A stretch of DNA of 32,215 bases from Pleomorphomonas sp. (GTDB taxonomy: Bacteria; Pseudomonadota; Alphaproteobacteria; Rhizobiales; Pleomorphomonadaceae). Of the stretch, positions 10,495-22,870 are shown one piece after another; the stretch's first letter is position 1; every line of letters begins with the position of its first letter. The translations under genes and the position numbers were made by a program. The stretch lies in contig JAUVXG010000031.1 of assembly GCA_030603685.1 (NCBI GenBank), positions 1 to 32,215 on the forward strand, in the 5' to 3' direction. Under the pieces are notes generated by a model, which was given only the letters and a program-made list of their open reading frames with translations, searched no databases and was not told where the DNA came from.

Positions 10495-10863
10495 ATGATC
10501 GAACTTCGGATTCAGTTGCGGGTGGATGCCGACACGCGCATCGGCCCAGGCAAGATCGCGCTTTTGGAGGCGATCGCTCGCGCCGGTTCGATATCGGCCG
10601 CCGCGCGGGAGATGGAGATGACCTATCGTCGCGCCTGGGAACTCATCGACCACATGAACAAGGCGTTCGGCCAACCGCTGGTCGTCGGTCACACGGGCAG
10701 TGCCGGCGGGGCGTCGCTCACGACGCTGGGGAGCGAGGTGGTTCGCCGCTATCGCCTCCTGGAAGAAATGGCCGGGGACGTTGCCGCGCCGCATCTGGCC
10801 GCACTCGATGCGGAGATCGTGACGCCCACGGCGGACGCGGACTCGGCTGTTGATCTCGACTAA
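10495..10863 (+). CDS. ModE-like DNA-binding protein, HTH domain only
   Basis: This 122-residue protein matches the N-terminal winged-helix domain of ModE. The segment GPGKIALLEAIARAGSISAA is followed by a recognition helix region with MTYRRAWELIDHMN, and a glycine-rich wing GSAGGASLTTLG precedes a final helix. The C-terminal oxyanion-binding Mop domains of full ModE are missing, so metal sensing would need another protein or a different mode. It is transcribed toward the AOR-family gene, and the gap between them carries two palindromes very like the ModE operator, so I infer control of the tungsten module (and perhaps itself). The fold and family are fairly secure; the regulated metal is inferred from context. 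Confidence 0.82.
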   Translation: MIELRIQLRVDADTRIGPGKIALLEAIARAGSISAAAREMEMTYRRAWELIDHMNKAFGQPLVVGHTGSAGGASLTTLGSEVVRRYRLLEEMAGDVAAPHLAALDAEIVTPTADADSAVDLD

Positions 10864-10895
10864 AGAATACTCGAGGCGATTCTGTTGGCTCGCCA

Positions 10896-10917
10896 ATTAT
10901 GTTCTTGAGAGTATAAT
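10896..10917. promoter_or_regulatory. ModE-like operator box 1, overlapping a -10 element
   Basis: A 22-bp imperfect palindrome has half sites ATTATGT and GTATAAT around 8 bases. It shares 17 of 22 positions with the second box at 11016. The E. coli modA operator has the same geometry (TTATAT-N8-ACATAA, from memory). The right half contains TATAAT (10912-10917), a good sigma-70 -10 element, so binding here would block transcription. Confidence 0.55.
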
Positions 10918-11015
10918 TCCGCCCTATTTGGTCCTTGTTGCGGGAATACCCACGTTTTCGGCTGGTTTGAATAGGGGTTGTCAGAATTTATGCTTCGGTA
11001 CCTGGTTCGAATTCA

Positions 11016-11037
11016 ATTATGTCGGTGAGAACATAAT
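11016..11037. promoter_or_regulatory. ModE-like operator box 2
   Basis: This 22-bp palindrome has perfect 7-base arms, ATTATGT and ACATAAT, separated by CGGTGAGA. It is 120 bp downstream of box 1 and is followed by an AT-rich TAGTATA stretch that could be a -10 element. The two boxes together suggest cooperative or looped binding by the ModE-like protein encoded just upstream. Confidence 0.6.
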
Positions 11038-11079
11038 AGTATAGGTTCGTATTTTCTCTGATTTGCTTGGATCGAAGAC

Positions 11080-11146
11080 TTTCGGCAAGGATGGCTCAGG
11101 CAGGCGTGGTCGTCACGCCGCCACCATCTTTTTGGCAAGGCCGAAA
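11080..11146 (+). promoter_or_regulatory. Terminator-like hairpin nested in the leader of the AOR gene
   Basis: GATGG (11090-11094) pairs with CCATC (11124-11128). Inside it GGC-(A)-GGCGTG pairs with CACGCC-GCC around loop GTCGT, and TTTTT follows directly (11129-11133). This is a good intrinsic terminator shape. An outer helix TTTCGGC (11080-11086) with GCCGAAA (11140-11146) can enclose the whole structure. It lies after the ModE-like boxes and about 50 bases before the AOR start codon, so it could act as a 5' leader attenuator. A plain terminator of the upstream regulator gene is the alternative. Confidence 0.5.
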
Positions 11147-11164
11147 TCACGAGGCATTTGGGGA

Positions 11165-11186
11165 CCTCCGGATCGGCAGTTGGAGG
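11165..11186 (+). promoter_or_regulatory. Hairpin covering the ribosome binding site of the AOR gene
   Basis: CCTCC (11165-11169) is complementary to the Shine-Dalgarno GGAGG (11182-11186) across a 12-base loop, seven bases before the ATG at 11194. Pairing would hide the ribosome binding site. With only five pairs the hairpin is modest, but together with the upstream terminator-like structure it suggests leader-based control. Confidence 0.4.
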
Positions 11187-11193
11187 AAGAGCC

Positions 11194-12927
11194 ATGCCTA
11201 AAGTCATTCGCATCAACATGACGGACCTCTCGGTCCGCATCGATGAGGCTCCGGAAGCCTGGGCCGGTCTCGGCGGGCGCGCCCTGACGTCGACGGTCGT
11301 TGCCGCCGAAGTGCCACCGACCTGCCATCCGCTCGGCCCCAACAACAAGCTGGTGTTCGCCCCCGGTCTGCTGTCCGGCACCGCTGCCGGCAATGCCGGT
11401 CGCATGTCGGCCGGCGCCAAGAGCCCGCTGACCGGAACCATCAAGGAAAGCAACGCCGGCGGCACCTGTGGCCGCATGCTGGGCCGCCTCGACATCAAGG
11501 CGATCATCATCGAAGGGCAGCCCGCTGCCACCGACACCTGGTACCAGATCCGCATCAGCAGCGAGGGCGCGGTCATCGAGCCGGAAGCCGAGACGGTCGG
11601 CATGAACAACTTCGCCGTCCTGGACTCGGTTGCGCGCCGCTATGGCGAGGACAAGGGCGTCATCACCATCGGTTCGGCCGGCGAGAACCTGATGCTGATC
11701 TCCAACATCTCGACCCGCGATCCCGAAGGCAAGCTGCGCAGCTTCGGCCGTGGCGGTCTCGGCGCGGTGATGGGCTCCAAGCGTGTCAAGTTCATTACCA
11801 TCGACCAGGAGGGCACCCGTCCGGTTCCGCTGGTCGACTCGGCCGCCTTCAAGGCCGCCAACATGGTGTTCACCAAGGCGCTCAAGGACCATCCGGTGTC
11901 CGGCCAAGGCCTTCCGACCTATGGCACCGCGGTGCTGGTCAACATCCTGCACGAGATCGGCGGCCTGCCGACCCGCAACTTCACGTCGGGCCAGTGCGAA
12001 CACCACGACATGATCTCGGGCGAGCACATGTACGACACCATCGTCGCCCGTGGCGGTGAGCCGACGCACGGCTGCTCGCTCGGTTGCGTCATCCAGTGCT
12101 CGCAGGTCTACAACGACAAGGACGGCAAGTACCTGACGTCCGGCTTCGAATACGAGACCATCTGGGCCTACGGCGCCGACTGCCTGATCGACAATCTCGA
12201 CCTCATCGCCGAGTGCGACAACGTCATGGACGATCTCGGCGTCGACAGTATCGAGACGCCGGTGATGTTCGGCGTCGCCATGGAGGCCGGCATCCTCAAG
12301 TTCGGTGACGGTGCGGAAGTGCTGCGCATGCTGCGCGAGGAGATCGGCAAGGCCACGCCGCTCGGCCGCATCCTCGGCGCGGGCACGGCCATGGTCGGCA
12401 AGACCTACGGCGTCGCCCGCGTGCCGGTGGTCAAGGGGCAGGCCATCCCCGCTTATGACCCGCGCTCCGTCAAGGGCATCGGCGTCACCTACGCCACGAC
12501 GACGCAGGGCGCCGACCATACGGCCGGCTATGCGGTTGCCACCAACGTGCTCAACGTCGGCGGCAAGGTCGATCCGCTGTCCAACGAGGGGCAGGTCGAG
12601 CTGTCGCGCAACCTCCAGATCGCCACGGCGGCCATCGACTCCACCGGCCTCTGCCTGTTCATCGCCTTCCCGGCGCTGGACATCGCCGAGTGCTTGCCGG
12701 CCACCGTCGACATGCTCAATGCCCGGTTCGGCACCAAGCTGACGATGGACGACGTCGTCGGGCTCGGCAAGACGGTGCTCAAACTGGAACATGAGTTCAA
12801 CCTGGCGGCCGGCATCGGGCCGGAGCAGGACCGTCTGCCGGAGTTCTTCGAGCTCGAAGCCATCGCCCCGCACAACGTGAAGTGGGACATGGAGCAGAAG
12901 GAACTCGAGACGTTCTGGAACTTCTGA
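11194..12927 (+). CDS. Aldehyde:ferredoxin oxidoreductase (AOR) family tungsten/molybdenum enzyme
   Basis: The 577-residue protein has AOR-family features throughout: an N-terminal domain with GGRALTSTVV, LVFAPGLLSGT and GRMSAGAKSPLTGT, then the cofactor and Fe-S domains. Two pyranopterin motifs are seen, DDLGVD (346-351) and DSTGLC (482-487), plus GADH with His442 and the EYET glutamate region. The [4Fe-4S] ligands would be Cys294, Cys298, Cys302 and Cys487; the first spacing is CxxxC where classical AOR has CxxC. The start is the ATG at 11194 with GGAGGAAG just upstream, not the longer frame from 11158. AOR enzymes carry a tungsten bis-pyranopterin and oxidise aldehydes or reduce acids in the cytoplasm. 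The substrate here is unknown. The surrounding tungstate importer, cofactor genes and iron-sulfur protein make a tungsten enzyme the best guess. Confidence 0.9.
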   Translation: MPKVIRINMTDLSVRIDEAPEAWAGLGGRALTSTVVAAEVPPTCHPLGPNNKLVFAPGLLSGTAAGNAGRMSAGAKSPLTGTIKESNAGGTCGRMLGRLDIKAIIIEGQPAATDTWYQIRISSEGAVIEPEAETVGMNNFAVLDSVARRYGEDKGVITIGSAGENLMLISNISTRDPEGKLRSFGRGGLGAVMGSKRVKFITIDQEGTRPVPLVDSAAFKAANMVFTKALKDHPVSGQGLPTYGTAVLVNILHEIGGLPTRNFTSGQCEHHDMISGEHMYDTIVARGGEPTHGCSLGCVIQCSQVYNDKDGKYLTSGFEYETIWAYGADCLIDNLDLIAECDNVMDDLGVDSIETPVMFGVAMEAGILKFGDGAEVLRMLREEIGKATPLGRILGAGTAMVGKTYGVARVPVVKGQAIPAYDPRSVKGIGVTYATTTQGADHTAGYAVATNVLNVGGKVDPLSNEGQVELSRNLQIATAAIDSTGLCLFIAFPALDIAECLPATVDMLNARFGTKLTMDDVVGLGKTVLKLEHEFNLAAGIGPEQDRLPEFFELEAIAPHNVKWDMEQKELETFWNF

Positions 12928-12939
12928 GCCGAGACAGTC

Positions 12940-13164
12940 ATGTTGATCACGGTCAAGCTCTTCGCGACCTTTCTCGAGAACCGCTTCAAGGAGGCCCGGC
13001 GGGAGTATCCGCCGGGAACCACCGTCGCCGACGTGGCGACGGAGCTTGAAATCGACCACGACCTGATCGGCATGATCTTCATTCACGGGCGCGCGGCCGA
13101 ACTCGACCGCGTGCTCGATGAAGGCGAAGTTCTGGCGCTCTTTCCCCTCCTCGGAGGGGGCTAG
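12940..13164 (+). CDS. MoaD/ThiS-family sulfur carrier with C-terminal Gly-Gly-Gly
   Basis: This 74-residue beta-grasp protein starts 12 bp after the AOR stop and ends LFPLLGGG, the Gly-Gly tail that is adenylated by a MoeB-type enzyme and then carries sulfur as a thiocarboxylate. Typical core features are LFATF near the N-terminus, GTTVADVATEL, and GEVLALFP before the tail. Its tight link to the AOR gene suggests a carrier dedicated to the dithiolene sulfurs of this enzyme's cofactor. An ordinary ThiS role is less likely because no thiamine synthesis genes are near. Confidence 0.85.
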   Translation: MLITVKLFATFLENRFKEARREYPPGTTVADVATELEIDHDLIGMIFIHGRAAELDRVLDEGEVLALFPLLGGG

Positions 13165-13248
13165 GCTCGTTTCCTCCTAGGGGCGTTTTAGTCGGGAAGC
13201 CTGCGCCCCCAACGCGTGCTTTTCGTTGGAGCAGCTGGAACGAACGTG
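13161..13248 (+). promoter_or_regulatory. Structured gap between the moaD-like and moeB-like genes
   Basis: The 88 bases can form several helices: CTAGG...CCTAG (13161-13179), GGGGCG (13180-13185) with CGCCCC (13204-13209), and CCAACG (13209-13214) with CGTTGG (13224-13229). A competing pairing joins TCGTT near 13223 with AACGA near 13239. The first two helices could stack on the third. With the strong hairpin that follows, this looks like an internal attenuator or a small structured RNA. I cannot match it to a known class by eye. Confidence 0.4.
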
Positions 13249-13275
13249 GAGGAGGCCCCGACAAGGGGCCTCCTC
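13249..13275 (+). terminator. Strong 11-bp hairpin before the moeB-like gene
   Basis: GAGGAGGCCCC pairs perfectly with GGGGCCTCCTC around loop GACAA. Only a short T-rich run (GTTTCTT) follows, four bases later. It could end or weaken transcription between the AOR-moaD pair and the cofactor genes, or stabilise the upstream message. Confidence 0.6.
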
Positions 13276-13312
13276 AGCCGTTTCTTGAAGTCGGCATGAC
13301 GGGAGGGCGACC

Positions 13313-14080
13313 TTGCTTTCGAATGTGGAACTCCAGCGCTACAGCCGGCATATCCTGCTCCGCGACGTCGGCGGTCCGGGGCAACACAAGCTCAAGGCGG
13401 CGCGCGTCCTGTGTGTCGGCGCCGGCGGCCTCGGCTCACCGGTGATCGAGTATCTCGCCGCCGCTGGAGTCGGTACCCTCGGTCTTGTCGATGACGACAG
13501 GGTCAGTCTCTCCAACCTGCAGCGCCAGGTGATCCATACCACCGCGAACGTCGGCAAGCTGAAGGTCGAGAGCGCGGGCGAGCGCATCGCCGCCATCAAC
13601 CCCCACGTCAATGTGGAGCTTCATCCTTCTCGTCTCGACGCCGGCAATATCGAAGATCTGGTAAGAGCTTATGATATCGTCGTCGACGGGACCGACAACT
13701 TTCCGACCCGCTTTCTGATGGCCGACACCGCCTATGCCCGCCGCAAGCCGCTGGTGACGGCGGGCGTGCTGGAGTTCTACGGTTCGCTGACGACGCTCAT
13801 GCCTTATGAGGCGGATGCGAACGGTCAACCCAATCCGAGCTGGCGTTGTTTGATGCCCAAAGAGCCGGATACCGCCGCGCTCACCTGTTCCGAGGTGGGT
13901 ATTCTCGGCAGCGTCGTCGGCGTGCTCGGCACGCTTGCCGCCTGCGAGGTGCTGAAAGTGATCACCGGCGTCGGCCAGCCGCTGATCGGCCGGTTGCTGA
14001 TGGTCGACATCCGCGACATGGGTTTCGACATCGTCGAGTACTACCGAAATCCGGCGTCCCCCGTCTTCGGACAAGCATGA
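13313..14080 (+). CDS. MoeB/HesA/ThiF-family activating enzyme with degenerate zinc site
   Basis: The 255-residue protein probably starts at TTG (13313) after GGGAGGG. It has the nucleotide-binding loop GAGGLGSP (residues 42-49), the acidic switch DDDRVSLSNLQRQ, the catalytic segment DGTDNFPTRF and the crossover Cys region ALTCSEVG. It should adenylate the C-terminal glycine of a MoaD-type carrier using ATP. E. coli MoeB binds zinc through a CYRC pair and an NPGCEVCG pair; here the first reads SWRC (only Cys179 kept) and the last reads NPASPVFG, so three of four ligands are gone. No rhodanese domain is attached. It lies between two MoaD-like genes, which are its likely partners. Confidence 0.87.
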   Translation: MLSNVELQRYSRHILLRDVGGPGQHKLKAARVLCVGAGGLGSPVIEYLAAAGVGTLGLVDDDRVSLSNLQRQVIHTTANVGKLKVESAGERIAAINPHVNVELHPSRLDAGNIEDLVRAYDIVVDGTDNFPTRFLMADTAYARRKPLVTAGVLEFYGSLTTLMPYEADANGQPNPSWRCLMPKEPDTAALTCSEVGILGSVVGVLGTLAACEVLKVITGVGQPLIGRLLMVDIRDMGFDIVEYYRNPASPVFGQA

Positions 14081-14089
14081 GGTGATCGC

Positions 14090-14440
14090 ATGGCCGGAGA
14101 GATCGAACTCATAGCCTTCATGGGGCTGCGTCAGCTGTTCAAGGATCGCGGCTGGTCGATCCCGCATTTCCTCGAAATCGAAGTCGACATGACCGGCGAG
14201 GAACTGCTGCGCTTCCTGTCGATCGACGGCGACAGGGTAGAATCGTTCATCGTCAACCGGTCCGCCATCGCGATCGAGGACGCCGTCATTCATCCCGGAG
14301 ATCGCGTCGCGCTGGTACCGCCGGGGGTTCCGGGGCCGCACCGTCTGCTGCTCGGCATTCATGGTCAGACGAAGCCGGCGCAGCCTTTCGGCCTGTCCTT
14401 CGCAAAAAGCGAAGACGGCGGGGAGGGCGGGGAGCAATGA
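14090..14440 (+). CDS. MoaD/ThiS-like protein without a terminal Gly-Gly
   Basis: This 116-residue protein has a beta-grasp look: LIAFMGLRQLF, a central helix with GEELLRFLSIDGD, then HPGDRVALVPPGVPG. In MoaD the last motif would end in Gly-Gly; here it reads PGVPG and continues for about 35 residues, ending GGEGGEQ. So it cannot act as a normal carrier unless it is cut. It starts 9 bp after the MoeB-like stop with GAGGTGA upstream, and its end overlaps the iron-sulfur gene by four bases (ATGA). A scaffold, chaperone or targeting role in cofactor assembly is possible. The fold call is from pattern only. Confidence 0.6.
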   Translation: MAGEIELIAFMGLRQLFKDRGWSIPHFLEIEVDMTGEELLRFLSIDGDRVESFIVNRSAIAIEDAVIHPGDRVALVPPGVPGPHRLLLGIHGQTKPAQPFGLSFAKSEDGGEGGEQ

Positions 14441-15933
14441 GCTTCGACAAGCCGGAGCTTCTGGCGCGCACCGTCATGACGACTTGCGTCAACTGCGAGC
14501 AGTGCCGCGAGCTGATGGAAGACGCGCCGTGCCAGTATTTCCCGCGCCTGTTCCATCTCGCCGACAGGGCCAAGTCGGGCGGCAGGCCGGTGTCGGGGCA
14601 GGATCTGGCCGAACTCGTCGATCTCTGCAACGCCTGCGGGCAGTGTCCGTGCCGCCCCGTTCAAAGCGATATCCGCAAGGCCAAGAACGCCTTCGTGGAA
14701 CGGGATGGCTTGCCGCTCGCCACCCGCTTCATCGAAAACGTCCAGTTGGTTGGCCGGTTGTGCGGCACCTTTCCCTCGTTGGTCGACGCGGTGATGAAGA
14801 ACCCGCTGCTTGGGCGGCTTGCCCGACGGGTCGTCGGCGTTCATCCGGATCGCAAGATGCCGTCGTTTCCGCGTGACCGTCTGGCACGGTGGGTCGCCCG
14901 GCGCGGTCTTGATCGCCCGACGCAGGCCGAGGGGCGCAAGGTCGCCTATTTCGTCGGCTGCACCGCCCGCTACCTGTTTCCCGAGGTCGCCAAGGCGACC
15001 ATCGAGGTGCTGGAGAAAAACGGCGTCACGGTCTACGTGCCGGACCAGAAATGCTGCGGCATGCCGACCTATCTGGAAGGCGACAAGCCTTTCACCCTCG
15101 ATCTTGTCGCGGCCAACCTGCCGATCCTCCAGCAATGCGTGGAAGACGGCTACGACATCGTGACAGCCTGCCCGACGTGTTCGTTCATGTTCAAGTCGGT
15201 GCTGGCCCGCGACGCTCAGTTCTCGCCGGCCTATCGCGACCGTATTCGGGCGTTGGCGGTTGAATGCGGCGGCGATACGGGGGACATCGCCGAGGTGCTC
15301 ACCGCCGAAGTGTCCGGTCCGTCCGGCCGAACCAGCAGCGTCGCCTCCGAGTTTCTGGCGCCTTGGGTGATCAACTACAATCTCGGCCTGCACGCGGAGG
15401 CGGATCGCGGGGACGTGGGCTATTTTGCCGGCCGGGACGCCTTCCAGCGGATCAAGGTCGCTGCGCATGTCTTCGAGCTCGGCGAGTATCTCGGCATCCT
15501 CGATCGCGAGGGCGCCCTGCGTTTGCCGCCGATGGATTCGCCTCAGAAGCTCGCCTATTTTGCGCCCTGCCATCTCCGGGAGCAGAACATGGGCCGCCCG
15601 TGGCTGCGACTTCTCGAAAAGGCGCCGCAGGCCGACTTATCGCCGGTAGGGCAGCCGATGGACTGCTGCGGACTTGGTGGCATCATGGGGTTCAAGACGG
15701 ACTTCCACGCCGCTTCGCTGGCCATGGGGCGCGGTCTGGTCGATCGGATAGGGGAAGCAGCGCCGGACCGGATCGTTACGGAATGTCTGGCCTGTCGGCT
15801 GCAATTCACCCAAATGCAGGAAAGGCCGGTGTCTCATCCCGTCGAACTGCTGGCTCGGGCCTATCGTGCCGAAGATGACGGGCGCGTTGCCGGCGAGGCC
15901 GGTTGTCGGGCAAAGTCAGGCGGCGGTTCGTGA
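14437..15933 (+). CDS. CCG-domain iron-sulfur oxidoreductase (HdrD/GlpC-like)
   Basis: The 498-residue protein starts by ATGA overlap with the gene before it. An N-terminal ferredoxin-like region has two cysteine groups, C17xxC20xxC23 with C32, and CNACGQCPC; both differ from the standard CxxCxxCxxxCP in the position of the last Cys. Two CCG domains follow: one with VGCTARY, QKCCGMPTYLEGD and CPTC (about residues 170-250), and one with APCHL, DCCGLGGIMGF and CLAC (about 375-455). Such domains hold Fe-S clusters in heterodisulfide reductase, GlpC and lactate-utilisation proteins. No membrane helix is seen. By position it is the likely electron partner of the AOR-family enzyme, passing electrons to quinone or another acceptor. 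The acceptor cannot be told from sequence. Confidence 0.87.
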   Translation: MSFDKPELLARTVMTTCVNCEQCRELMEDAPCQYFPRLFHLADRAKSGGRPVSGQDLAELVDLCNACGQCPCRPVQSDIRKAKNAFVERDGLPLATRFIENVQLVGRLCGTFPSLVDAVMKNPLLGRLARRVVGVHPDRKMPSFPRDRLARWVARRGLDRPTQAEGRKVAYFVGCTARYLFPEVAKATIEVLEKNGVTVYVPDQKCCGMPTYLEGDKPFTLDLVAANLPILQQCVEDGYDIVTACPTCSFMFKSVLARDAQFSPAYRDRIRALAVECGGDTGDIAEVLTAEVSGPSGRTSSVASEFLAPWVINYNLGLHAEADRGDVGYFAGRDAFQRIKVAAHVFELGEYLGILDREGALRLPPMDSPQKLAYFAPCHLREQNMGRPWLRLLEKAPQADLSPVGQPMDCCGLGGIMGFKTDFHAASLAMGRGLVDRIGEAAPDRIVTECLACRLQFTQMQERPVSHPVELLARAYRAEDDGRVAGEAGCRAKSGGGS

Positions 15934-15964
15934 TGGAACGACGGCGGAGACTGGAGGCTGGGGC

Positions 15965-17218
15965 ATGGTGCAGTTGAGTTCGGACGCCTTCGCATTCGGA
16001 GGCGATCTGATGCCGGTCGAAGATGCGCTGGCGTTGATCGCCGCCAGGGTTCCGCCGGTCACCGAGACTGAAAGGGTCGGCCTGATCGACGCCGACGGTC
16101 GTTTTCTCGCTGCTGACCTGATCGCCCCGATCGACCTGCCGGTGTTCGACAATTCGGCGGTCGACGGCTACGCCGTTGCTTACGCCGATCTTGCCGCCGA
16201 TGGGCCCACCGTGTTGCCGGTTGGCGCCAGGGTGGCGGCGGGTCAGGCGGCGCTCGATGCCGTTGCCCGGAAAACGACGGCTCGAATCTTCACCGGAGCC
16301 CCCATGCCGCAAGGCACAGATACCGTCTTCATGCAGGAAGACGTGACCGTGGCGGACGATGGCAGCGTCGAGCTGCCGCCGGGGCTCCGCAAGGGCGCCA
16401 ACTGTCGCCCGCGAGGGGAGGATATCGCCCGGGGAAGCGTGGCCGCACCGGCTGGTCGCCGTCTCGAACCACGCGACATTGCGCTGCTCGCCGCACTCGG
16501 CGTTACCTCGGTTGAGGTTCGCCGCAGGCCGCGTGTCGCCGTGTTCTCGACCGGTGACGAGTTGCGCAATCCGGGGCAGGCGCTCGGCGCGGCGGCGATC
16601 TACGATTCCAATCGCTTTTCCCTGCAGGTCATGCTCAGGCGTGCCGGATGCGATGTGACCGATCTCGGCATTCTGCCCGACGATCGCAGCGTCACGGCCG
16701 AACGTCTCGATGCGGCCGCGCGATCATACGATCTCATCGTGACGTCGGGTGGCGTCTCCACCGGCGAAGAGGACCATGTGCGGGCCGCGATCGCCGCCAA
16801 CGGCTCTATGGTTTTCTGGCGTCTCGGGATCAAGCCGGGGCGCCCGTTGGCCATGGGCATCATCAACGGCACGCCGCTGGTGGGCCTTCCCGGCAACCCG
16901 GTCGCGGTTTTCGTCACCTTCGCGCATGTGCTCCGGCCGTTGGTGACCGTTCTGGCGGGCGGAAGGCCCGCGCCGCTCGTCGCCATGACCGTGCTTTCCG
17001 GCTTTGACTACCAGAAGAAAGCCGGCCGGAGGGAGTATGTCCGCGTGTCCCTCGAACGCTCGGATGGGGGTGCGGTGGCGATGAAGTATCCGGTCGACGG
17101 TGCCGGTGTTCTCACGTCTCTGACCCGCACCGACGGGATGGTCGAGCTGCCCGAGGCGTGCACGGCCATCCGGATCGGCGATCCGGTTTCCTATTATGCC
17201 TACAACCAACTCACCTGA
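15965..17218 (+). CDS. moeA: Molybdopterin molybdenumtransferase MoeA (metal insertase)
   Basis: The 417-residue protein shows the MoeA signature set: FDNSAVDGYAV, FTGAPMPQGTDTV, FSTGDEL, YDSNRF, TSGGVSTGEEDH, KPGRPLAMG and GLPGNPVA. The last ones belong to the MoCF-type domain that binds molybdopterin. MoeA inserts molybdate, or in tungsten users tungstate, into adenylated pterin. The start ATG at 15965 is preceded by GGAGGCTGGGGC and lies 32 bp after the iron-sulfur gene; the longer frame from 15866 overlaps that gene. A copy inside the AOR cluster may be the tungsten-specialised form, as organisms often keep two MoeA proteins. That specialisation is inference. Confidence 0.93.
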   Translation: MVQLSSDAFAFGGDLMPVEDALALIAARVPPVTETERVGLIDADGRFLAADLIAPIDLPVFDNSAVDGYAVAYADLAADGPTVLPVGARVAAGQAALDAVARKTTARIFTGAPMPQGTDTVFMQEDVTVADDGSVELPPGLRKGANCRPRGEDIARGSVAAPAGRRLEPRDIALLAALGVTSVEVRRRPRVAVFSTGDELRNPGQALGAAAIYDSNRFSLQVMLRRAGCDVTDLGILPDDRSVTAERLDAAARSYDLIVTSGGVSTGEEDHVRAAIAANGSMVFWRLGIKPGRPLAMGIINGTPLVGLPGNPVAVFVTFAHVLRPLVTVLAGGRPAPLVAMTVLSGFDYQKKAGRREYVRVSLERSDGGAVAMKYPVDGAGVLTSLTRTDGMVELPEACTAIRIGDPVSYYAYNQLT

Positions 17219-17242
17219 CGGTGCCCCGCGGAGGTTGGCCCG

Positions 17243-18979
17243 ATGAATCTGCCAATCAAGAACTACGTCATGAATTGCCGGTCGACGACCGGAGCCGGCT
17301 CCGATTGCGAGCGGTGTTCGTCCTCGCCAAGACCACAAAGCTTGGCGCGCGGAGGCTGTCGTTCGATGCATCACGGCGATATTCTGGCGGTGCGATCGCG
17401 ATTTCTGTCCACGGGCGCGGTGCCCGACGGCGTGCCGACGCCCCTCGTTCGATCTTGGCAACGGAGCAGTCGGTTCGGTTTCGCGTCTCCGACCCTGGCT
17501 CGGCAACGCGACAGACTGGAAGACGCGGGGTTGAGAAGCCTCAAGGAGCGCAACGCCGATCTGATCGCGTCCTCGCTGGAGGAAATGGCCTCGCTCGCCA
17601 ACGAGCTGAGTGCGTTGGGTGGCGTCGTCATCCTGACCGATCCCACCGGCATCGTGTTGAACAGGCTGGGCGAGGGCGGTTTCTCCGACGATGCCGATCG
17701 GCTGGGTCTCAACGAAGGGGTCGACTGGTCCGAGAACGCCATCGGAACCAATGCCATCGGTACCGTGGCGCTGGAGATGGTTGGCCTGTCGATCATTGGC
17801 GCCGAGCATCTTTTCTGCCTCAACACGTCCCTCAGCTGCTCGGCGGTGCCGATCCTCGATCCATCTGGCCTGCTGGCCGGCGTTCTCGATGTATCGACAT
17901 CCTGCACCGTCGCCCACGACCATCTGCTGCCGTTGCTCAGACGCGCCGTGATCGAGATCGAACGTCGCTTGTTCGACTTGCGTTTTCACGGGCACGCGCA
18001 ACTACGCTTTCATTCCAGCCAGTATCTGTTCGGAGGACCGCGAGACGGGGTGCTGGCCTTTGACGAGGATCGCCTGATCGGCGCCAATCGCGCGGCGCTG
18101 GAGCTTCTGGGGCACGATTGGTCGGCCGTTGGGCGCGCTCGGTTCCAGCATCTGTTCGCCGCCGGTTACGATGTCGCCGAGCAGACGGCAGTGGCCGGTG
18201 AGTGCAGGCTTCGCTCGGCCGACGGAGAGGAGTTCTTCGCGCGTTTGCAGTTGCCGCGCAGGCCGTTGCGTGGACCAGCTCGATCGGGCAGGCACAGTCC
18301 GGTCGCGACGTCCGATGTCGAGGCGGATGGCCAGGAGATGCGGCCGCATCTCGCGCTTGAGAAGATTCAGAACCGGGCGGCGCTCAAGTTTCGTCGGATG
18401 ACGGTTGGCCAACTCATCTATGGCGCCGACCTGATGGACGACTGTGGAGAGGCCATTCTGATTGTCGCTTCCGGTCGTTACCGCTGCTTTGCCTCGCACG
18501 AGGGACGGGAGCTGACCCTGTTCACGCTTGGCTGCGGCGACGCGCTGCCGCTTCGGGCGGACCTCGCGGTGGAAATCACCACCGAGGGTGACGCGGCCTT
18601 GGTTCCGCGCGCGCTGTTCCAAAGGCTGGTTCGCGACTATCCCGAGTTCGGTCGGTGTGTGCTGTCCGTCATCGAAACGCTTCTCGGCCGATCATTGTCG
18701 ATGGTTGGCGACATGGCTTTCCGGAGCGTGCGCTACCGGGTCATTCGGCATATATGCTCGCTTGCCGAACGTGATGGCCGAGAGACGTCAACCGGAACGC
18801 TCATCGATCCGGCCCCGACCGGCGATGAGCTCGCAGCGGCCATAGGGGCGGCGCGTCAGTCCGTCTCGACGATTCTCGCCGAACTCACGCGATCGAACGA
18901 TGTTCTCCGCCCAACGCCGCGCAGTCTCGTGGTCTGCGATATCGAGCGTCTTCGGGCAGAGCTGACGCGTGCGGCGTGA
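17243..18979 (+). CDS. Fusion transcription regulator: Cys-rich N-terminus, AcoR-like GAF and PAS, Crp/Fnr-like HTH
   Basis: The 578-residue protein starts at ATG 17243 with GGAGG upstream, 24 bp after moeA. Residues 1-42 hold Cys12, Cys22, Cys25 and Cys39, a pattern able to bind a metal or Fe-S cluster. Residues about 60-235 match the N-terminal half of AcoR-type sigma-54 activators (VRSWQRSSRFG, GGVVILTDPTGIVL, WSENAIGTNAIGT, LSCSAVPILD, GVLDVSTSC), including a GAF sensor. A PAS-like part follows (about 260-325). Where AcoR has an AAA+ domain, this protein has a Crp/Fnr-type sensor core (about 395-490) and a winged HTH (about 520-575; GDELAAAIGAARQSVSTILAEL). So it should act with the vegetative sigma factor. 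It likely governs the AOR and tup operons in response to a small organic ligand and perhaps redox. Ligand unknown. Confidence 0.8.
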   Translation: MNLPIKNYVMNCRSTTGAGSDCERCSSSPRPQSLARGGCRSMHHGDILAVRSRFLSTGAVPDGVPTPLVRSWQRSSRFGFASPTLARQRDRLEDAGLRSLKERNADLIASSLEEMASLANELSALGGVVILTDPTGIVLNRLGEGGFSDDADRLGLNEGVDWSENAIGTNAIGTVALEMVGLSIIGAEHLFCLNTSLSCSAVPILDPSGLLAGVLDVSTSCTVAHDHLLPLLRRAVIEIERRLFDLRFHGHAQLRFHSSQYLFGGPRDGVLAFDEDRLIGANRAALELLGHDWSAVGRARFQHLFAAGYDVAEQTAVAGECRLRSADGEEFFARLQLPRRPLRGPARSGRHSPVATSDVEADGQEMRPHLALEKIQNRAALKFRRMTVGQLIYGADLMDDCGEAILIVASGRYRCFASHEGRELTLFTLGCGDALPLRADLAVEITTEGDAALVPRALFQRLVRDYPEFGRCVLSVIETLLGRSLSMVGDMAFRSVRYRVIRHICSLAERDGRETSTGTLIDPAPTGDELAAAIGAARQSVSTILAELTRSNDVLRPTPRSLVVCDIERLRAELTRAA

Positions 18980-19431
18980 CCGCCGATGACGCCGTGATCT
19001 GAAAGCCCGGGCAAGCGCCGCCGCGCTTTCGAAGATGGATACCTGTGGTCCGCACGCGATCACCGGCGTCGTCGCGATGAGCTTCTCCCAACAAAATACC
19101 GGACTCGGGAAGAAAACTTACCGGCTCCGACTTGTCGCCTAGGTGACAGCCTTTCCCCAGACGCCAAGATAAATGGGGGCGAGGCGCGGGTATAACGGCC
19201 GGATCAGGAGGAGCATCCTGCCGAACAGGAGCGCTGCAGGAGGAAGGCTGCGCTCGATCTCGTCCAAAACGTTGTAATTTACCGAACTCCGTTAGAAGAC
19301 GGACATGATCTGGCTGGTATTGTCCAAAAGTCCATGTTCCTAAACTGACAGAATATGGTGATGAACATCCTGTCGGGCTACCTTCTCTGGAATAAAACTC
19401 TGTTTTTCCGGAGATATACGTGGAATAACGC
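18980..19431. promoter_or_regulatory. 452-bp upstream region of the tup operon
   Basis: No convincing gene is present. It holds a 16-bp palindrome at 19133-19148 (listed separately) and several possible RNA hairpins: CGG-CAGGA with TCCTG-CCG (19200-19223) and GAGCGC with GCGCTC (19229-19255). The last 150 bases are AT-richer (19270-19420) and probably contain the tup promoter. I see no clear ModE-like box here. The length and the hairpins leave room for a structured leader. Confidence 0.4.
19133..19148. promoter_or_regulatory. 16-bp palindrome upstream of tup, possible regulator site
   Basis: TGTCGCCTAGGTGACA is a palindrome with one mismatched pair. Its length and TGTC...GACA ends fit a dimeric winged-helix regulator such as a Crp/Fnr-type protein. 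The fusion regulator with a Crp-type HTH is encoded immediately upstream, so it is the obvious candidate binder. No second copy was found by eye. Confidence 0.35.
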
Positions 19432-20142
19432 ATGCAGCAGGACGCGATACCCATTTCTTCGATTTTGTCATTGCTTACCGGCGATGGCGGAAACTTCTTG
19501 GGCATCATTCTCCTGTCGCTTCAGGTTACGATTACTGCCGTCACGTGCGCTGGGCTCGTCGGATTGCCCTTGGGCGCCGGTTTGGCTCTGGTCCGCTTTC
19601 CTGGACGCACGGTGATCATCGTGCTGGTGAACACCATGATGGGGTTTCCTCCCGTCGTCGCCGGTCTTGCCATCTTCCTGCTTCTGTCGCGCTCAGGGCC
19701 GCTCGGAGATCTGGGACTGCTCTTTACGCCCAAGGCGATGATGATCGCCCAGTTCGTGCTGGTTTTGCCCATCATCGTCGCGCTGACCCGGCAGACGATC
19801 GAGGACCTCTGGACCGAGTATCAGGATCATATGACCTCTCTTGGCGCCGGTCGGCTGCGTTCCATTCCGACGCTGTTGTGGGACGCTCGCTTCTCGTTGG
19901 TGACGACGCTGCTCGCCGGGCTCGGCCGGGCCAGTGCCGAAGTTGGCGCCATTCTGATCGTCGGCGGCAACATTGCCGGCTTTACCCGTACCATGACGAC
20001 CTCGATCGCCCTCGAGACGTCCAAGGGGGATCTGCCGCTGGCCATGGCGCTCGGCGTCGTTCTCATGAGTCTCACCCTGATCATCAACAGTCTTGCCTTC
20101 GGCATTTCGCGCGTCGGCGCACGGTTCTCAGGGAAAAGCTGA
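19432..20142 (+). CDS. tupB: Tungstate ABC transporter permease TupB
   Basis: The 236-residue membrane protein has about five or six helices. Its EAA-type loop (TSLGAGRLRSIPTLLWDAR) is followed by LGRASAEVGAILIVGGNIAG, a segment characteristic of tungstate/molybdate-type permeases of the TupB group. The stop overlaps the TupC start (TGATG-type overlap at 20140-20144), and TupA follows, giving the order B-C-A. The substrate call depends mainly on TupA. The ATG at 19432 is a reasonable start. Confidence 0.87.
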   Translation: MQQDAIPISSILSLLTGDGGNFLGIILLSLQVTITAVTCAGLVGLPLGAGLALVRFPGRTVIIVLVNTMMGFPPVVAGLAIFLLLSRSGPLGDLGLLFTPKAMMIAQFVLVLPIIVALTRQTIEDLWTEYQDHMTSLGAGRLRSIPTLLWDARFSLVTTLLAGLGRASAEVGAILIVGGNIAGFTRTMTTSIALETSKGDLPLAMALGVVLMSLTLIINSLAFGISRVGARFSGKS

Positions 20143-20870
20143 TGCGCGACACAACGTCCATGCTACCGCTGATCGTGCGCGACCTTCGCCTGGAGATGGA
20201 CGGGCGGATTTTGCTCGACGTTCCCCTGGCACGCATCCAGAACCGGCAGCGCAATGTCATCCTGGGACCGAACGGAGCCGGCAAGTCGCTGTTTCTCAAG
20301 ACTTGCCATGGGCTCATTCCCCCGACATCGGGGCGGATCGAGTATACGCTTCCTGTCTCGACCGCCGAGGTCCGGCGCAAGCAGGCGATGGTGTTCCAGA
20401 AGCCCGTGATGCTTCGCCGGTCGGTTCGGGCCAACTTCACGCATGCGCTCGCCATGGCGGGCGTCGGTTGGTACGAGCGTCGCCGCATCGCCGACGAGAC
20501 CATGGCGCAGTTCGGTCTTTCGGGCTTGGCCGACAGTCCGGCCCGCGTGTTGTCCGGTGGCGAGCAGCAAAGGCTTGCGATCGCTCGCGCCGCGAGCCTC
20601 GGCCCCGATCTGTTGTTTCTGGACGAGCCGACGTCATCGCTCGATCCGACGGCCAGCCGCCAGATCGAGGACATGCTGGACGTGTTGCACGAGCGCGGCG
20701 TCACGCTGGTGCTGACCACGCACGATCTGGGCCTCGCTCGTCGCTTCGCAGACGTGATCTTCTTCTTTCACAACGGTCGGCTCATCGAGGAGAGCGATGC
20801 CGAGCGTTTTTTCACCCAACCCGAAACCGAAGAAGCCAAGGCTTTTCTGGAACATCGCCTGTTCTGGTGA
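20142..20870 (+). CDS. tupC: Tungstate ABC transporter ATPase TupC
   Basis: This 242-residue ATPase has Walker A GPNGAGKS (about residues 43-50), Q loop VFQKPVMLRRSV, signature LSGGEQQRLAIARA, Walker B LLFLDEPTSSLD and H loop TTHDLGLA. The QKPVMLRRSV stretch is common among tungstate and zinc-uptake-like small ATPases. It starts within the TupB stop codon, so the two are coupled. It lacks the long C-terminal Mop/TOBE domain found in ModC, which fits TupC better than ModC. Confidence 0.87.
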   Translation: MRDTTSMLPLIVRDLRLEMDGRILLDVPLARIQNRQRNVILGPNGAGKSLFLKTCHGLIPPTSGRIEYTLPVSTAEVRRKQAMVFQKPVMLRRSVRANFTHALAMAGVGWYERRRIADETMAQFGLSGLADSPARVLSGGEQQRLAIARAASLGPDLLFLDEPTSSLDPTASRQIEDMLDVLHERGVTLVLTTHDLGLARRFADVIFFFHNGRLIEESDAERFFTQPETEEAKAFLEHRLFW

Positions 20871-20906
20871 GGCTGCGCCACATTTTCACGAGATTGGAGA
20901 AACCCA

Positions 20907-21743
20907 ATGCTGCGTCGTATCTTCGTCACCGCTGCGGCGTCCGTACTGGTCGCCATCGGCATGTTGTCGGCGGCCGAGGCCCAAGACCGTTTCATCACCG
21001 TCGCATCGACGACATCGACCCAGGACTCGGGGCTTTTCGACGCGCTGTTGCCGGCGTTTACAGCCAAGACCGGCATTACCGTGAAGGTCATAGCGCAGGG
21101 AACCGGGCAGGCGCTCGACACGGCACGTCGCGGTGACGCCGACGTCGTGTTCGTCCACGCCAAGGCGCAGGAACTCAAGTTCCTGGAGGATCGCTTCGGC
21201 GTGAAGCGCTATCCGGTGATGTACAACGATTTCGTCGTGGTCGGTCCCAAGAGCGATCCGGCAGGCATTGCCGGTGGCAAGGACGTTGCCGTAGCCTTGA
21301 AGGCGATCGCCGACAAGAAGGCGCCGTTCGTCTCCCGTGGCGACAAGTCCGGCACCCATTCCGCGGAACTGAAGCTCTGGAAGGCGGCGGATATCGACCT
21401 GCCGGCAGTGCGGGGTGAGTGGTACCGCGAGATAGGCCAGGGCATGGGCGCGACGCTCAACACGGCAAATGCGATGGCTGCCTACACGCTGTCGGATCGC
21501 GCCACCTGGATCGCCTTTGCCAACAAGGGCGATCTCGGCATCGTCGTGGAAGGCGACAAGAAGCTGTTCAACCAGTACGGCGTCATGCTGGTCAACCCGG
21601 CCAAGTTCTCGACGGTGAAGGCCGACGACGGCCAGGCCTTCATCGACTGGCTGGTGTCGCCGGAAGGGCAGTCCGCCATCGAGAACTATCGCATCGGCGA
21701 TCAGCAGCTCTTCTTTCCGAACGCCAGTGATCCCAAGGCCTGA
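20907..21743 (+). CDS. tupA: Tungstate-binding periplasmic protein TupA
   Basis: The 278-residue protein has a signal peptide (about 1-25, ending AEAQ) and then the TupA hallmark TTSTQDSGL (about 35-43), part of the oxyanion pocket. Other family features are VIAQGTGQALDTARRGDADV, YNDFVVVGP and SRGDKSGTHSAEL. TupA proteins bind tungstate far more tightly than molybdate. This makes the operon a tungstate importer and is the best evidence that the neighbouring AOR-type enzyme uses tungsten. It is the last tup gene and is followed by a terminator-like hairpin. Confidence 0.93.
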   Translation: MLRRIFVTAAASVLVAIGMLSAAEAQDRFITVASTTSTQDSGLFDALLPAFTAKTGITVKVIAQGTGQALDTARRGDADVVFVHAKAQELKFLEDRFGVKRYPVMYNDFVVVGPKSDPAGIAGGKDVAVALKAIADKKAPFVSRGDKSGTHSAELKLWKAADIDLPAVRGEWYREIGQGMGATLNTANAMAAYTLSDRATWIAFANKGDLGIVVEGDKKLFNQYGVMLVNPAKFSTVKADDGQAFIDWLVSPEGQSAIENYRIGDQQLFFPNASDPKA

Positions 21744-21767
21744 TGGGCGTTGACTGAGTTATGAGCG

Positions 21768-21804
21768 GAAGCGGCCGGAGCACCATTTGATTTCCGGCCG
21801 TTTC
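21768..21804 (+). terminator. Hairpin terminator after tupA
   Basis: GAAGCGGCCGGA (21768-21779) pairs with TCCGGCCGTTTC (21793-21804) over 12 positions (one G-U) around a 13-base loop. A short TTT is part of the right arm and there is no long T tract. It most likely ends the tup transcript and separates it from moaA. Confidence 0.65.
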
Positions 21805-21871
21805 AGACGGATGTCAGGACCAGGCGCGTCCATGGAGACGGCGTTTCAGCGAATAGCGGCGGGTAGAGATC

Positions 21872-22870
21872 ATGCAGTCCAGACTCGTTGACGACTTCGG
21901 TCGAGCGATCACCTACCTCAGGGTCTCCGTGACTGACCGGTGCAACTTGCGCTGCGGCTATTGCATGGCCGGTGAGGTCTCTTTCTCGCCGCGTCGGGAT
22001 GTCCTGACCATCGAGGAGCTGGAGTTCCTGACCTCCGCCTTTGTCGCTTGCGGCATCCGCAAGGTCAGGATCACGGGTGGCGAACCGCTGGTGCGCAAAG
22101 GCGTCCTGCACCTGTTCCAGGGACTGTCGCGTCATCTTCGGAGTGGTGACCTTGATGAGCTTTGTCTGACGACCAACGGCATCCTTTTGCCGAAGTTTGC
22201 GCGCGATCTGGCCGACTGTGGCGTTCGTCGGGTGAACGTTTCGCTCGACAGTCTCGATCGCGATCGCTTCGCCGAGATCACGAGCGGCGGCGATCTCGGC
22301 GCGGTCCTGAACGGGATCGATGCCGCCCTTGCGGCCGGTCTGGCGGTTAAGCTCAACGCCGTCGCCCAGAAGGGCTATATCGAGCGCGACGTCTTCGACC
22401 TCGTCCAGTTCGCCCAGGACCGCCAGCTGGATGTCTCGTTCATCGAGACCATGCCGCTCGGGGAGGTCAAGACCAGTTGCGCGGATCGCTATCTTCCGCT
22501 TGCCGAGCTGCGGCGGCTTATCGAGGGGCGCTGGAGGCTCACCGATGTCGACGTCACAACAGGCGGTCCCGCGCGGTACGCCCGGATCGAGGAAACCGGT
22601 GGGCGGATCGGGTTCATCACCGCTTTGAGCGACTGTTTCTGCGAGGGCTGCAACCGCCTCCGGTTGAGCGCCACCGGAGGGCTCTATACCTGCCTTGGTC
22701 ACGATGATTTCACCGATCTTCGCGCGATCATTCGCCGGGAGGGTGGGGCGGTCGGACTTGAGGGGGCCATTCGCGCCGCCGTCGCTGGCAAGCCGAAATC
22801 CCACGAGTTCGGCACCACGCCGGGCAGAGAGCCTGCGCTCAAGAGATACATGTCGGCCCTGGGCGGATGA
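21872..22870 (+). CDS. moaA: GTP 3',8-cyclase MoaA
   Basis: The 332-residue radical SAM protein has the N-terminal cluster motif CNLRCGYC (Cys27, Cys31 and Cys34 region), the SAM-binding TGGEPLVRKG, and the C-terminal second-cluster motif CFCEGCNRLRLS...GLYTC. It ends ALGG, the Gly-Gly tail needed for the reaction. With MoaC it makes cyclic pyranopterin monophosphate from GTP, the first step of molybdenum and tungsten cofactor synthesis. No moaC, moaE or mogA is near, so this copy may add capacity for the tungsten enzyme. It lies downstream of the tup terminator and probably has its own promoter. Confidence 0.93.
   Translation: MQSRLVDDFGRAITYLRVSVTDRCNLRCGYCMAGEVSFSPRRDVLTIEELEFLTSAFVACGIRKVRITGGEPLVRKGVLHLFQGLSRHLRSGDLDELCLTTNGILLPKFARDLADCGVRRVNVSLDSLDRDRFAEITSGGDLGAVLNGIDAALAAGLAVKLNAVAQKGYIERDVFDLVQFAQDRQLDVSFIETMPLGEVKTSCADRYLPLAELRRLIEGRWRLTDVDVTTGGPARYARIEETGGRIGFITALSDCFCEGCNRLRLSATGGLYTCLGHDDFTDLRAIIRREGGAVGLEGAIRAAVAGKPKSHEFGTTPGREPALKRYMSALGG

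Follow-up and report, generated by a model that had tools for sequence, protein, structure and literature searches.

Tungsten oxidoreductases (WORs) have been sorted into classes by electron partner, and only 5 of their 92 clades include an enzyme whose physiological role is defined (PMC13328260). According to the same paper, class I includes CsWOR87 of Cetobacterium somerae, described as ferredoxin-type. In class I WORs of this kind, with worX and thiF, the aldehyde oxidoreductase (AOR) gene is followed by MoaD/ThiS and ThiF genes with no WorS, an order that we observed beside a Cetobacterium AOR. A gene for the polyferredoxin WorS (four [4Fe-4S]) is required in classes II-V; class III AorABC of Aromatoleum aromaticum comprises a polyferredoxin (AorA) and an FAD subunit (AorC), and the class IV benzoyl-CoA reductase BamBCDEFGHI of Geobacter metallireducens joins a WOR-family enzyme to the Hdr-like BamD/E. 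In Methylorubrum extorquens, a moeA1-mobB-tupBCA locus neighbours formate dehydrogenase, and residues R291 and A312 of MoeA1 have been tied to tungsten selectivity (PMC13197769). CCG proteins such as GlpC, LutA and GlcF combine a ferredoxin-like region with two CCG domains and adjoin a flavoprotein dehydrogenase, and PMC3543383 describes a CCG pair as typical for enzymes with quinone or disulfide substrates. Apart from BamD/E, we found no earlier description of an AOR with an HdrD or CCG partner in searches of open PMC papers.

The window analyzed here, a 32,215-nucleotide stretch of a Pleomorphomonas contig, carries a single plus-strand run of genes whose content, strand and order are as a sequence-only reading had described them, every gene it named being confirmed:

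10495..10863, plus strand, ModE-type HTH protein of 122 aa, limited to the DNA-binding part
10897..10916, imperfect palindrome TTATGT-N8-ACATAA, one mismatch
11017..11036, palindrome TTATGT-N8-ACATAA, candidate operator upstream of the AOR gene
11129..11193, plus strand, AOR leader, with CCTCC able to pair with the ribosome-binding GGAGG
11194..12927, plus strand, aldehyde oxidoreductase (WOR/AOR large subunit, CX3CX3C lineage; 577 aa; PF02730, PF01314)
12940..13164, plus strand, MoaD/ThiS sulfur carrier (PF02597; ends GGG; position matches "WorX")
13249..13275, plus strand, GC-rich hairpin in the moaD-moeB gap, stem GAGGAGGCCC/GGGCCTCCTC
13313..14080, plus strand, MoeB/ThiF-type adenylyltransferase (NF004281 294.9 bits, above the cut-off of 266)
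14090..14440, plus strand, p116, MoaD-fold protein by predicted fold (116 aa; motif PPGVPGPHR)
14437..15933, plus strand, HdrD/GlpC-like Fe-S protein (the CCG protein; PF02754 twice, GlpC model below cut-off, Cys alignment)
15965..17218, plus strand, MoeA (Arg/Ala where M. extorquens MoeA1 has its metal-selectivity residues)
17243..18979, plus strand, fusion regulator (DhaR-like sensor part, C-terminal Crp-type HTH)
19432..20142, plus strand, TupB-like permease (NF038017 240.8 bits; TupB model 159.7, cut-off 320)
20142..20870, plus strand, TupC-like ATPase (PF00005; between tupB and tupA)
20907..21743, plus strand, TupA-like tungstate-binding protein (NF041772 245.5 bits, cut-off 400)
21872..22870, plus strand, MoaA (TIGR02666 347 bits, above the cut-off of 284)

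No genes for WorS (the four-[4Fe-4S] polyferredoxin), WorN, WorABC, an FAD subunit or a bifurcating (HydABC-like) subunit are found among the ORFs of 10495-22870, and the locus therefore lies outside the definitions of WOR classes II-V in PMC13328260. Class I is defined by a lone large subunit with no redox subunit gene next to it, and WorS, WorN and WorABC are missing here, yet a CCG iron-sulfur gene stands in the run. Like the CsWOR87 locus, the AOR gene is followed by MoaD/ThiS and ThiF-type genes, moaD occupying the same location as the MoaD/ThiS gene beside the Cetobacterium AOR; unlike it, the enzyme has CX3CX3C rather than CX2CX3C spacing, p116 and CCG genes are additional, and tup, moeA and regulators lie within the same run. 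The AOR belongs to the same catalytic family as AorABC (8c0z, 260 bits), but the cluster has no gene for AorA or AorC. A WOR-family enzyme with an Hdr-like partner recalls Bam, although BamB is a weak match (4z3w, 51 bits), other Bam-type genes were not seen and BamD is likened by description only. The earlier claim that the electron partner departs from described complexes is supported as regards the missing WorS, FAD and bifurcating genes and has to be qualified by the Hdr-like BamD/E. As in M. extorquens, a MoeA whose residues at the R291 and A312 positions are Arg and Ala is encoded near tupBCA, but mobB was not seen and the neighbor is an AOR, not formate dehydrogenase.

We propose, with a probability of about one half, that the run is a self-contained tungsten unit serving one cytoplasmic aldehyde oxidoreductase, with electrons passing to the CCG protein. 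Tungstate would be imported by TupBCA; the MoaA product would be converted to molybdopterin with the help of MoaD and MoeB, and MoeA would insert the tungsten. The AOR would turn aldehydes into acids, or carry out the opposite reaction given a strong reductant, and electrons would leave it through its own [4Fe-4S] cluster. What the sequences show directly is the gene content, its conservation and co-occurrence, the active-site residues and the palindromes; tungsten in the enzyme, an aldehyde as its substrate and operator binding are inferred from these. The route of the electrons via the CCG protein is the most speculative step.

The enzyme itself is a member of the AOR family, with N- and C-terminal AFOR domains far over their cut-offs (PF02730, 195 bits; PF01314, 244 bits) and 9mqx, 1aor and 8c0z among its PDB relatives. 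Its start is most likely the ATG at 11194 behind GGAGG rather than an upstream TTG. All 39 aligned sequences share the cluster cysteines C294, C298, C302 and C487, spaced CX3CX3C as in the rest of the lineage, in comparison with CX2CX3C in five solved relatives. Equally invariant (39/39) are T245, E321, Y421 and H442, which alignment to 1aor matches to T243, E313, Y427 and H448 of PfAOR, the second-shell set listed for broad aldehyde oxidizers in section 7 of PMC12096430. An aldehyde is accordingly the probable substrate, and with all four residues of aldehyde-oxidizing AORs conserved, the suggestion that the substrate may be new finds no support. A dedicated reaction (a specific or aromatic acid or aldehyde, or acid reduction) in place of general aldehyde oxidation could be argued from the separate CX3CX3C lineage, which has no characterized member among the sequences compared, and from a sister AOR (L051) lying among genes that by eye resemble ring-cleavage genes. 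It is improbable, however, given the broad-oxidizer residues and the lack of any visible catabolic gene among the ORFs of the unit.

Tungsten is the metal to which the importer and MoeA point. TupA, TupB and TupC homologs stand together in the cluster, and the nearest solved structures to TupA are tungstate-binding TupA-type proteins (3lr1, E 7e-75; 5my5, E 2e-61); TupA and TupB score under the NCBIfam equivalog cut-offs and are therefore termed Tup-like. MoeA, most likely starting at 15965, scores 406 bits against its best NCBIfam model (cut-off 440). Arg and Ala occupy the two selectivity positions in all 15 readable cluster copies, as against Lys in 16 other readable MoeAs and Arg/Ala in one (genome G005). 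TupA together with a MoeA bearing both residues suggests tungsten use, and the AOR probably contains tungsten. The AOR might instead hold molybdenum in vivo, with Tup and MoeA serving something else or being unselective: Escherichia coli YdhV takes molybdenum (PMC13328260), G005 has kept an Arg/Ala MoeA with neither AOR nor tupA, and the Tup scores fall short of the NCBIfam cut-offs. We consider this very unlikely, since in the genus tupA is present exactly where the AOR is (11 of 14 genomes), TupA is nearest to solved tungstate binders, and Tup is reported in virtually all organisms with class I-IV WORs in PMC13328260. For the MoeA residues put forward as determinants of tungsten selectivity, the unit is a second, independent test case.

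A neighborhood comparison showed that the genes co-occur, so that the refuting outcome named in the sequence-only reading, neighbors that fail to accompany the AOR in other genomes, did not arise. The order modE-like-AOR-moaD-moeB-p116 recurs in every one of the 10 further genus genomes that have the AOR, and these also have the CCG gene and moeA; the remainder of the cluster is collinear in 9 of the 10 other loci (one of these ended by a contig end) and inverted in G007. This retention of order across genus loci places the arrangement beyond chance. AOR, CCG gene and tupA share one identical set of 11 genomes among the 14 of the genus, and a second family of the order (f27) also has the AOR unit with different flanks, three of its genomes having an adjacent CCG gene at 53-57% identity; these co-occurrence counts derive from two families only and are not phylogenetically independent. 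They bear out the earlier proposal of a tungsten-linked, co-inherited unit for AOR, CCG gene and tupA. Its membership was drawn too widely in that moaA and moeA, which are kept in G005 without the rest, are not strictly members; because moaA persists there in the absence of the tungsten block, we rejected it as a dedicated part, and MoaA is probably shared. In all comparisons carried out dN was less than dS, and a scan of genome contigs returned eight loci, all 94-99% identical. In wider taxon samples, with three to four candidates scored per genome, the genome itself was the only one of 398 phylum genomes to give an AOR at E<=1e-100 and the only one of 385 class genomes to give the CCG gene at 1e-60. 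A plasmid search with the AOR returned Acetoanaerobium (Clostridia) at 56% identity, the others being at most 37% among the best 30 of 87 matches. The unit occurs in cultured alphaproteobacteria, with AOR, p116, CCG gene and tupA all present in P. oryzae and P. diazotrophica, as part of a lineage having no characterized member among those compared, and one genus provides a natural experiment, with the whole unit in some species and missing from others.

The strictest companion of the AOR is p116, found alongside 17 of 17 AORs of the clade and in 9 of 295 order genomes, which are all nine with the AOR clade. It has no match in Pfam or NCBIfam. Among solved structures, the MoaD subunit of molybdopterin synthase comes closest to its predicted fold (pLDDT 78.5; 6jbz_B, TM 0.72 by target length, E 1.1e-3), although E 0.001 was not reached by any structure match, and it is missing the C-terminal Gly-Gly, its tail reading PPGVPGPHR and then continuing. 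We suggest that p116 may be a MoaD-fold accessory for this AOR clade, such as a chaperone, maturation factor or small subunit.

Like GlpC, LutA and GlcF, the CCG protein has a ferredoxin-like region and two CCG domains, with complete motifs at C175, C206-C207, C245, C248 and C378, C410-C411, C450, C453; unlike them, it falls below the cut-off of its best NCBIfam model (GlpC, 216.4 bits; cut-off 278) and has no adjoining flavoprotein dehydrogenase. Its N-terminal region contains eight cysteines (C17, C20, C23, C32, C64, C67, C70, C72) that likely bind two [4Fe-4S] clusters; its predicted structure was too poor for use (pLDDT 45). Electrons from the AOR would most likely enter through these two clusters and pass to a quinone, by a GlpC-like route, or to a disulfide. 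Relatives are only 23-31% identical among the best 25 of 143 matches. One in Burkholderia lies between rubrerythrin-like and DUF3501-like genes (by eye) and is uninformative for the AOR. An apparent TGA inside the G007 gene was ruled out, the aligned frame being open across residues 1-481.

Among 397 order genomes, with the best three candidates per genome scored, the CCG gene was detected in 15, all within the 16 that have an AOR of at least 72% identity, and an electron-partner role is plausible on these sequence grounds. To name it as the partner outright, as had been done, is too strong, because G651 (a 99% complete draft in 390 contigs) has the AOR unit and p116 with no CCG homolog at 1e-20, the two CCG copies of G672 lie away from its AOR unit beside molybdenum enzymes, none occurs within 15 kb of the Acetoanaerobium AOR, and the gene sits among maturation genes (moeB, p116, moeA). 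That setting gives credibility to a tentative alternative, in which the AOR, as a class I WOR, reduces ferredoxin and the CCG protein has a redox service or maturation role for pterin-metal enzymes. One G672 copy is on the same strand as AioA-DUF2478 and the other near IorAB, the cluster gene lies downstream of a conserved hairpin together with maturation genes, and the 15 kb around the Acetoanaerobium AOR include p116 and MoaD genes but neither a CCG nor a tup gene. Against this alternative stands the absence of the gene at 1e-60 from 381 order genomes without the AOR clade (best three candidates per genome scored), many of which presumably have molybdenum enzymes, and we know of no step in the Moco pathway that requires a CCG-type protein. 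For the ferredoxin half of this alternative, the Cetobacterium AOR shares the AOR-MoaD-ThiF order and CsWOR87 is ferredoxin-type (PMC13328260); according to PMC4967309, P. oryzae has genes for a short ferredoxin, PFO and [FeFe]-hydrogenase, which makes ferredoxin a readily available acceptor and counts against the CCG route.

The tungsten unit with electron transfer to the CCG protein remains our preferred reading. In its boldest form, which we think somewhat unlikely, it would be a sixth WOR architecture in which a CX3CX3C AOR hands its electrons directly to an HdrD/GlpC-like protein whose two CCG clusters are non-cubane, bypassing ferredoxin, NAD and polyferredoxin, and the lineage-specific p116 is dedicated to the tungsten cofactor. 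If true, the oxidation of aldehydes would be coupled to the reduction of a quinone or disulfide; the CCG gene and p116 provide handles on whether a CCG protein can serve such an AOR as acceptor.

In all 10 other genus loci, and likewise in all five f27 loci, the modE-like gene stands upstream of the AOR gene. Its product scores 76.7 bits against TIGR00637, the N-terminal ModE HTH (cut-off 98.5), and above the cut-off for PF00126; only this HTH part was matched, with no molybdate-binding domains. It may bind the two palindromes that precede the AOR gene. The 11017..11036 site was expected zero times in 100 shuffles, for a pattern taken post hoc from the site itself, and 12 of the 16 module genomes have an exact TTRTGY-N8-RCATAATA. 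The pair allows binding by a ModE-type HTH protein without metal-sensing domains to be tested. The AOR leader is almost unchanged in 10 of 11 aligned genus loci and the predicted fold of 11070-11210 is good (z -3.48); a riboswitch was considered and rejected, since neither the window nor the region matched any Rfam family and the f27 leaders differ by eye. The hairpin stem GAGGAGGCCC/GGGCCTCCTC recurs in 9 of 11 genus loci, and the four f27 loci examined leave no space for it. The fusion regulator is absent from the stretches examined in G008 and G007, and a 55% paralog adjoins a moaC-moeA-moeB locus on contig C231.

The window is the whole of contig C267 in a 4.75 Mb draft genome of Pleomorphomonas (Hyphomicrobiales, Alphaproteobacteria). 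Open reading frames together with domain and profile matches bear out the gene list that the sequence-only reading had drawn up for its module:

10495-22870, + strand: module, in the order modE-like, AOR, moaD, moeB, p116, CCG gene, moeA, sensor-Crp fusion regulator, tupBCA, moaA
11017-11036: palindrome upstream of AOR
11194-12927, + strand: AOR, an aldehyde oxidoreductase (large subunit, tungsten oxidoreductase (WOR)/AOR family), its start being better placed at 11194
14090-14440, + strand: p116, a 116-aa MoaD-fold protein
14437-15933, + strand: CCG gene, encoding an HdrD/GlpC-like Fe-S protein

We predict, with a probability of about 0.85, that the module joins tungstate import and cofactor assembly to an aldehyde-type AOR; tungstate would be imported, the cofactor assembled and the enzyme would then act on aldehydes.

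The AOR is the only member of its family matched in its own genome; it shares 99% identity with the AOR of Pleomorphomonas sp. NRK KF1 and 94-97% with seven other loci, including P. diazotrophica and P. oryzae. A midpoint-rooted tree was built from 39 AORs taken from genus, order and wider searches and from named records, leaving out four loci and two unplaced matches. The window's AOR and 22 others form one lineage (support 0.99) with the cluster motif CX3CX3C, the remaining 16 having CX2CX3C, as do all five of the nine solved relatives whose alignments could be inspected. T245, E321, Y421, H442 and four cysteines are kept in 39/39 AORs, and since residues at the four named positions are among those listed for aldehyde oxidation (PMC12096430), this is the default expectation for the reaction. 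The earlier suggestion that the substrate may be new thus finds no support, and no gene in the cluster points to a named substrate. A sister CX3CX3C AOR (39% identity; L051:4838-16703) lies amid what appear by eye to be aromatic ring cleavage and oxygenase genes, a setting that could point to aromatic substrates for that branch. In Azospirillum thermophilum (L104:8503-17871), what comes after the AOR is annotated as large subunits of complex I-like and nickel hydrogenase type, possibly an aldehyde-linked membrane complex.

For the metal, the nearest solved structures to TupA are tungstate-binding proteins, and the cluster MoeA has Arg and Ala at the positions of Methylorubrum extorquens MoeA1 R291 and A312, as do 15/15 readable cluster MoeAs. 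In M. extorquens, replacing these residues by Lys and Ser increased Mo-dependent activity, though the authors caution that the cells still had MoeA2 (PMC13197769). The 30 MoeA places in 10 genomes comprise seven in clusters, one further Arg/Ala (genome G005), nine Lys/Ser, seven Lys/Ala and six that the pattern did not read; in genome G029, whose AOR is a different one, one MoeA is Arg/Ala and adjoins a tupA-like gene, and another is Lys/Ser. AOR, CCG gene and tupA are all absent from G005, where the window's chromosomal site (L136:7345-11384) has the same flanking genes and holds only moeA and moaA between diguanylate cyclase and antiporter genes. Either G005 lost both blocks around moeA, or the blocks were inserted around an older moeA-moaA pair. 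Under both histories the Arg/Ala MoeA can exist without a tungsten importer, and it is therefore weaker as proof of tungsten. The window's own genome has a second cofactor locus (contig C231, L138:1462-6745) with a regulator paralogue (55%), a moaC-like gene (by eye), a Lys/Ser moeA and a moeB 76% identical to the cluster copy.

The gene-neighbourhood comparison called for by the sequence-only reading was run, and AOR (at least 79% identity), CCG gene and tupA co-occur in the same 11 of 14 genus genomes, counting the window's own, in a 60-genome search; CCG gene and tupA are absent from the other three. All 10 stretches from the other AOR-bearing genus genomes keep modE-like, AOR, moaD, moeB, p116, CCG gene and moeA, with tupBCA in nine (the tenth contig ends, its tupA lying on another), the fusion regulator in eight and moaA in seven; G007 carries the block CCG-moeA-tupBCA in inverted orientation. 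Among 397 order genomes, with the best three candidates per genome scored, AOR matches at 1e-95 number 21, of which 16 share at least 72% identity (11 genus, five from a second family, f27) and five 38-39%. The CCG gene (E<=1e-60) occurs in 15/397, all within those 16, an association whose Fisher value of 3e-26 overstates the evidence, the genomes being related and from two families only. In a class-wide sample, 1/385 genomes has the CCG gene, the window's own. The f27 loci have different flanking genes; p116 follows moeB in 5/5, three loci have moeA and tupBCA beyond modE and one has them 3' of the CCG gene, and in the G684 stretch tupC and tupB appear but no moeA.

The strictest companion of the AOR is p116, present with 17/17 AORs of the window's clade and in 9/295 order genomes, all nine carrying an AOR of that clade; the CCG protein is a strong but dispensable one, its gene not being found beside the AOR in three AOR-bearing genomes. 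In G651 (f27) the AOR unit is present and no CCG homologue was found at 1e-20. G672 has an AOR unit without a CCG gene and two CCG paralogues (57% identical; L087:1749-5967 and L088:4753-10607) elsewhere, one on the same strand just 3' of a DUF2478 gene and an AioA-type molybdopterin oxidoreductase, the other convergent with the genes of an IorAB-type enzyme (names assigned by eye; Pfam confirms the molybdopterin families and DUF2478). In the clostridium Acetoanaerobium noterae, p116 and MoaD adjoin an AOR of 56% identity; no match to CCG, moeB or tup lies within 15 kb of it. The 2.63 Mb Acetoanaerobium record L032 (NZ_CP154629.1), which is labelled plasmid pTPELB2 and has four annotated features, appears to be a chromosome under the wrong label.

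The proposal that the CCG protein is the electron partner, passing AOR electrons on to quinone or disulfide, keeps tight co-occurrence in its favour and is weakened by these three genomes; we give it roughly even odds. Its main rival makes ferredoxin the acceptor and gives the protein a service or maturation role; ferredoxin, PFO and [FeFe]-hydrogenase are reported from P. oryzae (PMC4967309). WORs have been sorted by partner into five classes in a paper whose main text lacks HdrD, GlpC, CCG and heterodisulfide, though its supplementary neighbourhood table may include these loci unlabelled; the Hdr-like subunits noted in that text are BamD/E of benzoyl-CoA reductase (PMC13328260). A non-exhaustive search of the open literature found no AOR with an HdrD/CCG partner.

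Upstream of AOR, the palindrome TTATGT-N8-ACATAA (11017-11036) is the sole exact match in the window against 0 expected in shuffles, for a pattern drawn from this very site, and a one-mismatch copy lies 120 bases further upstream. Because matches with up to two mismatches are not unusual (four found, 2.9 expected), the case rests on conservation: in 12/16 module genomes the 400 bases upstream of AOR contain an exact TTRTGY-N8-RCATAATA, and in 15/16 they contain TTRTGY-N8-RCATAA if one mismatch is allowed, G007 having none. The ModE-like gene lies alongside in 16/16, and its product may bind this candidate operator. The AOR leader (11129-11193), nearly invariant in 10/11 genus loci, matches no Rfam family, and its CCTCC could pair with the ribosome-binding site. 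AOR synonymous divergence falls below that of most other module genes in distant comparisons (G009, G012, G008, G007), perhaps a sign of codon bias in a gene that is highly expressed.

Within the module, 12 bases separate AOR from moaD; p116 shares four bases with the CCG gene, and moeA comes close behind the latter. The 148-base moaD-moeB gap contains a strong GC hairpin (13249-13275), its stem constant and its loops variable in 9/11 genus loci (G011 lacks it and G007 has a different one); the gap is only 7-23 bases in the four f27 loci examined. Such a hairpin may keep expression of the genes 3' of it below that of AOR and moaD.
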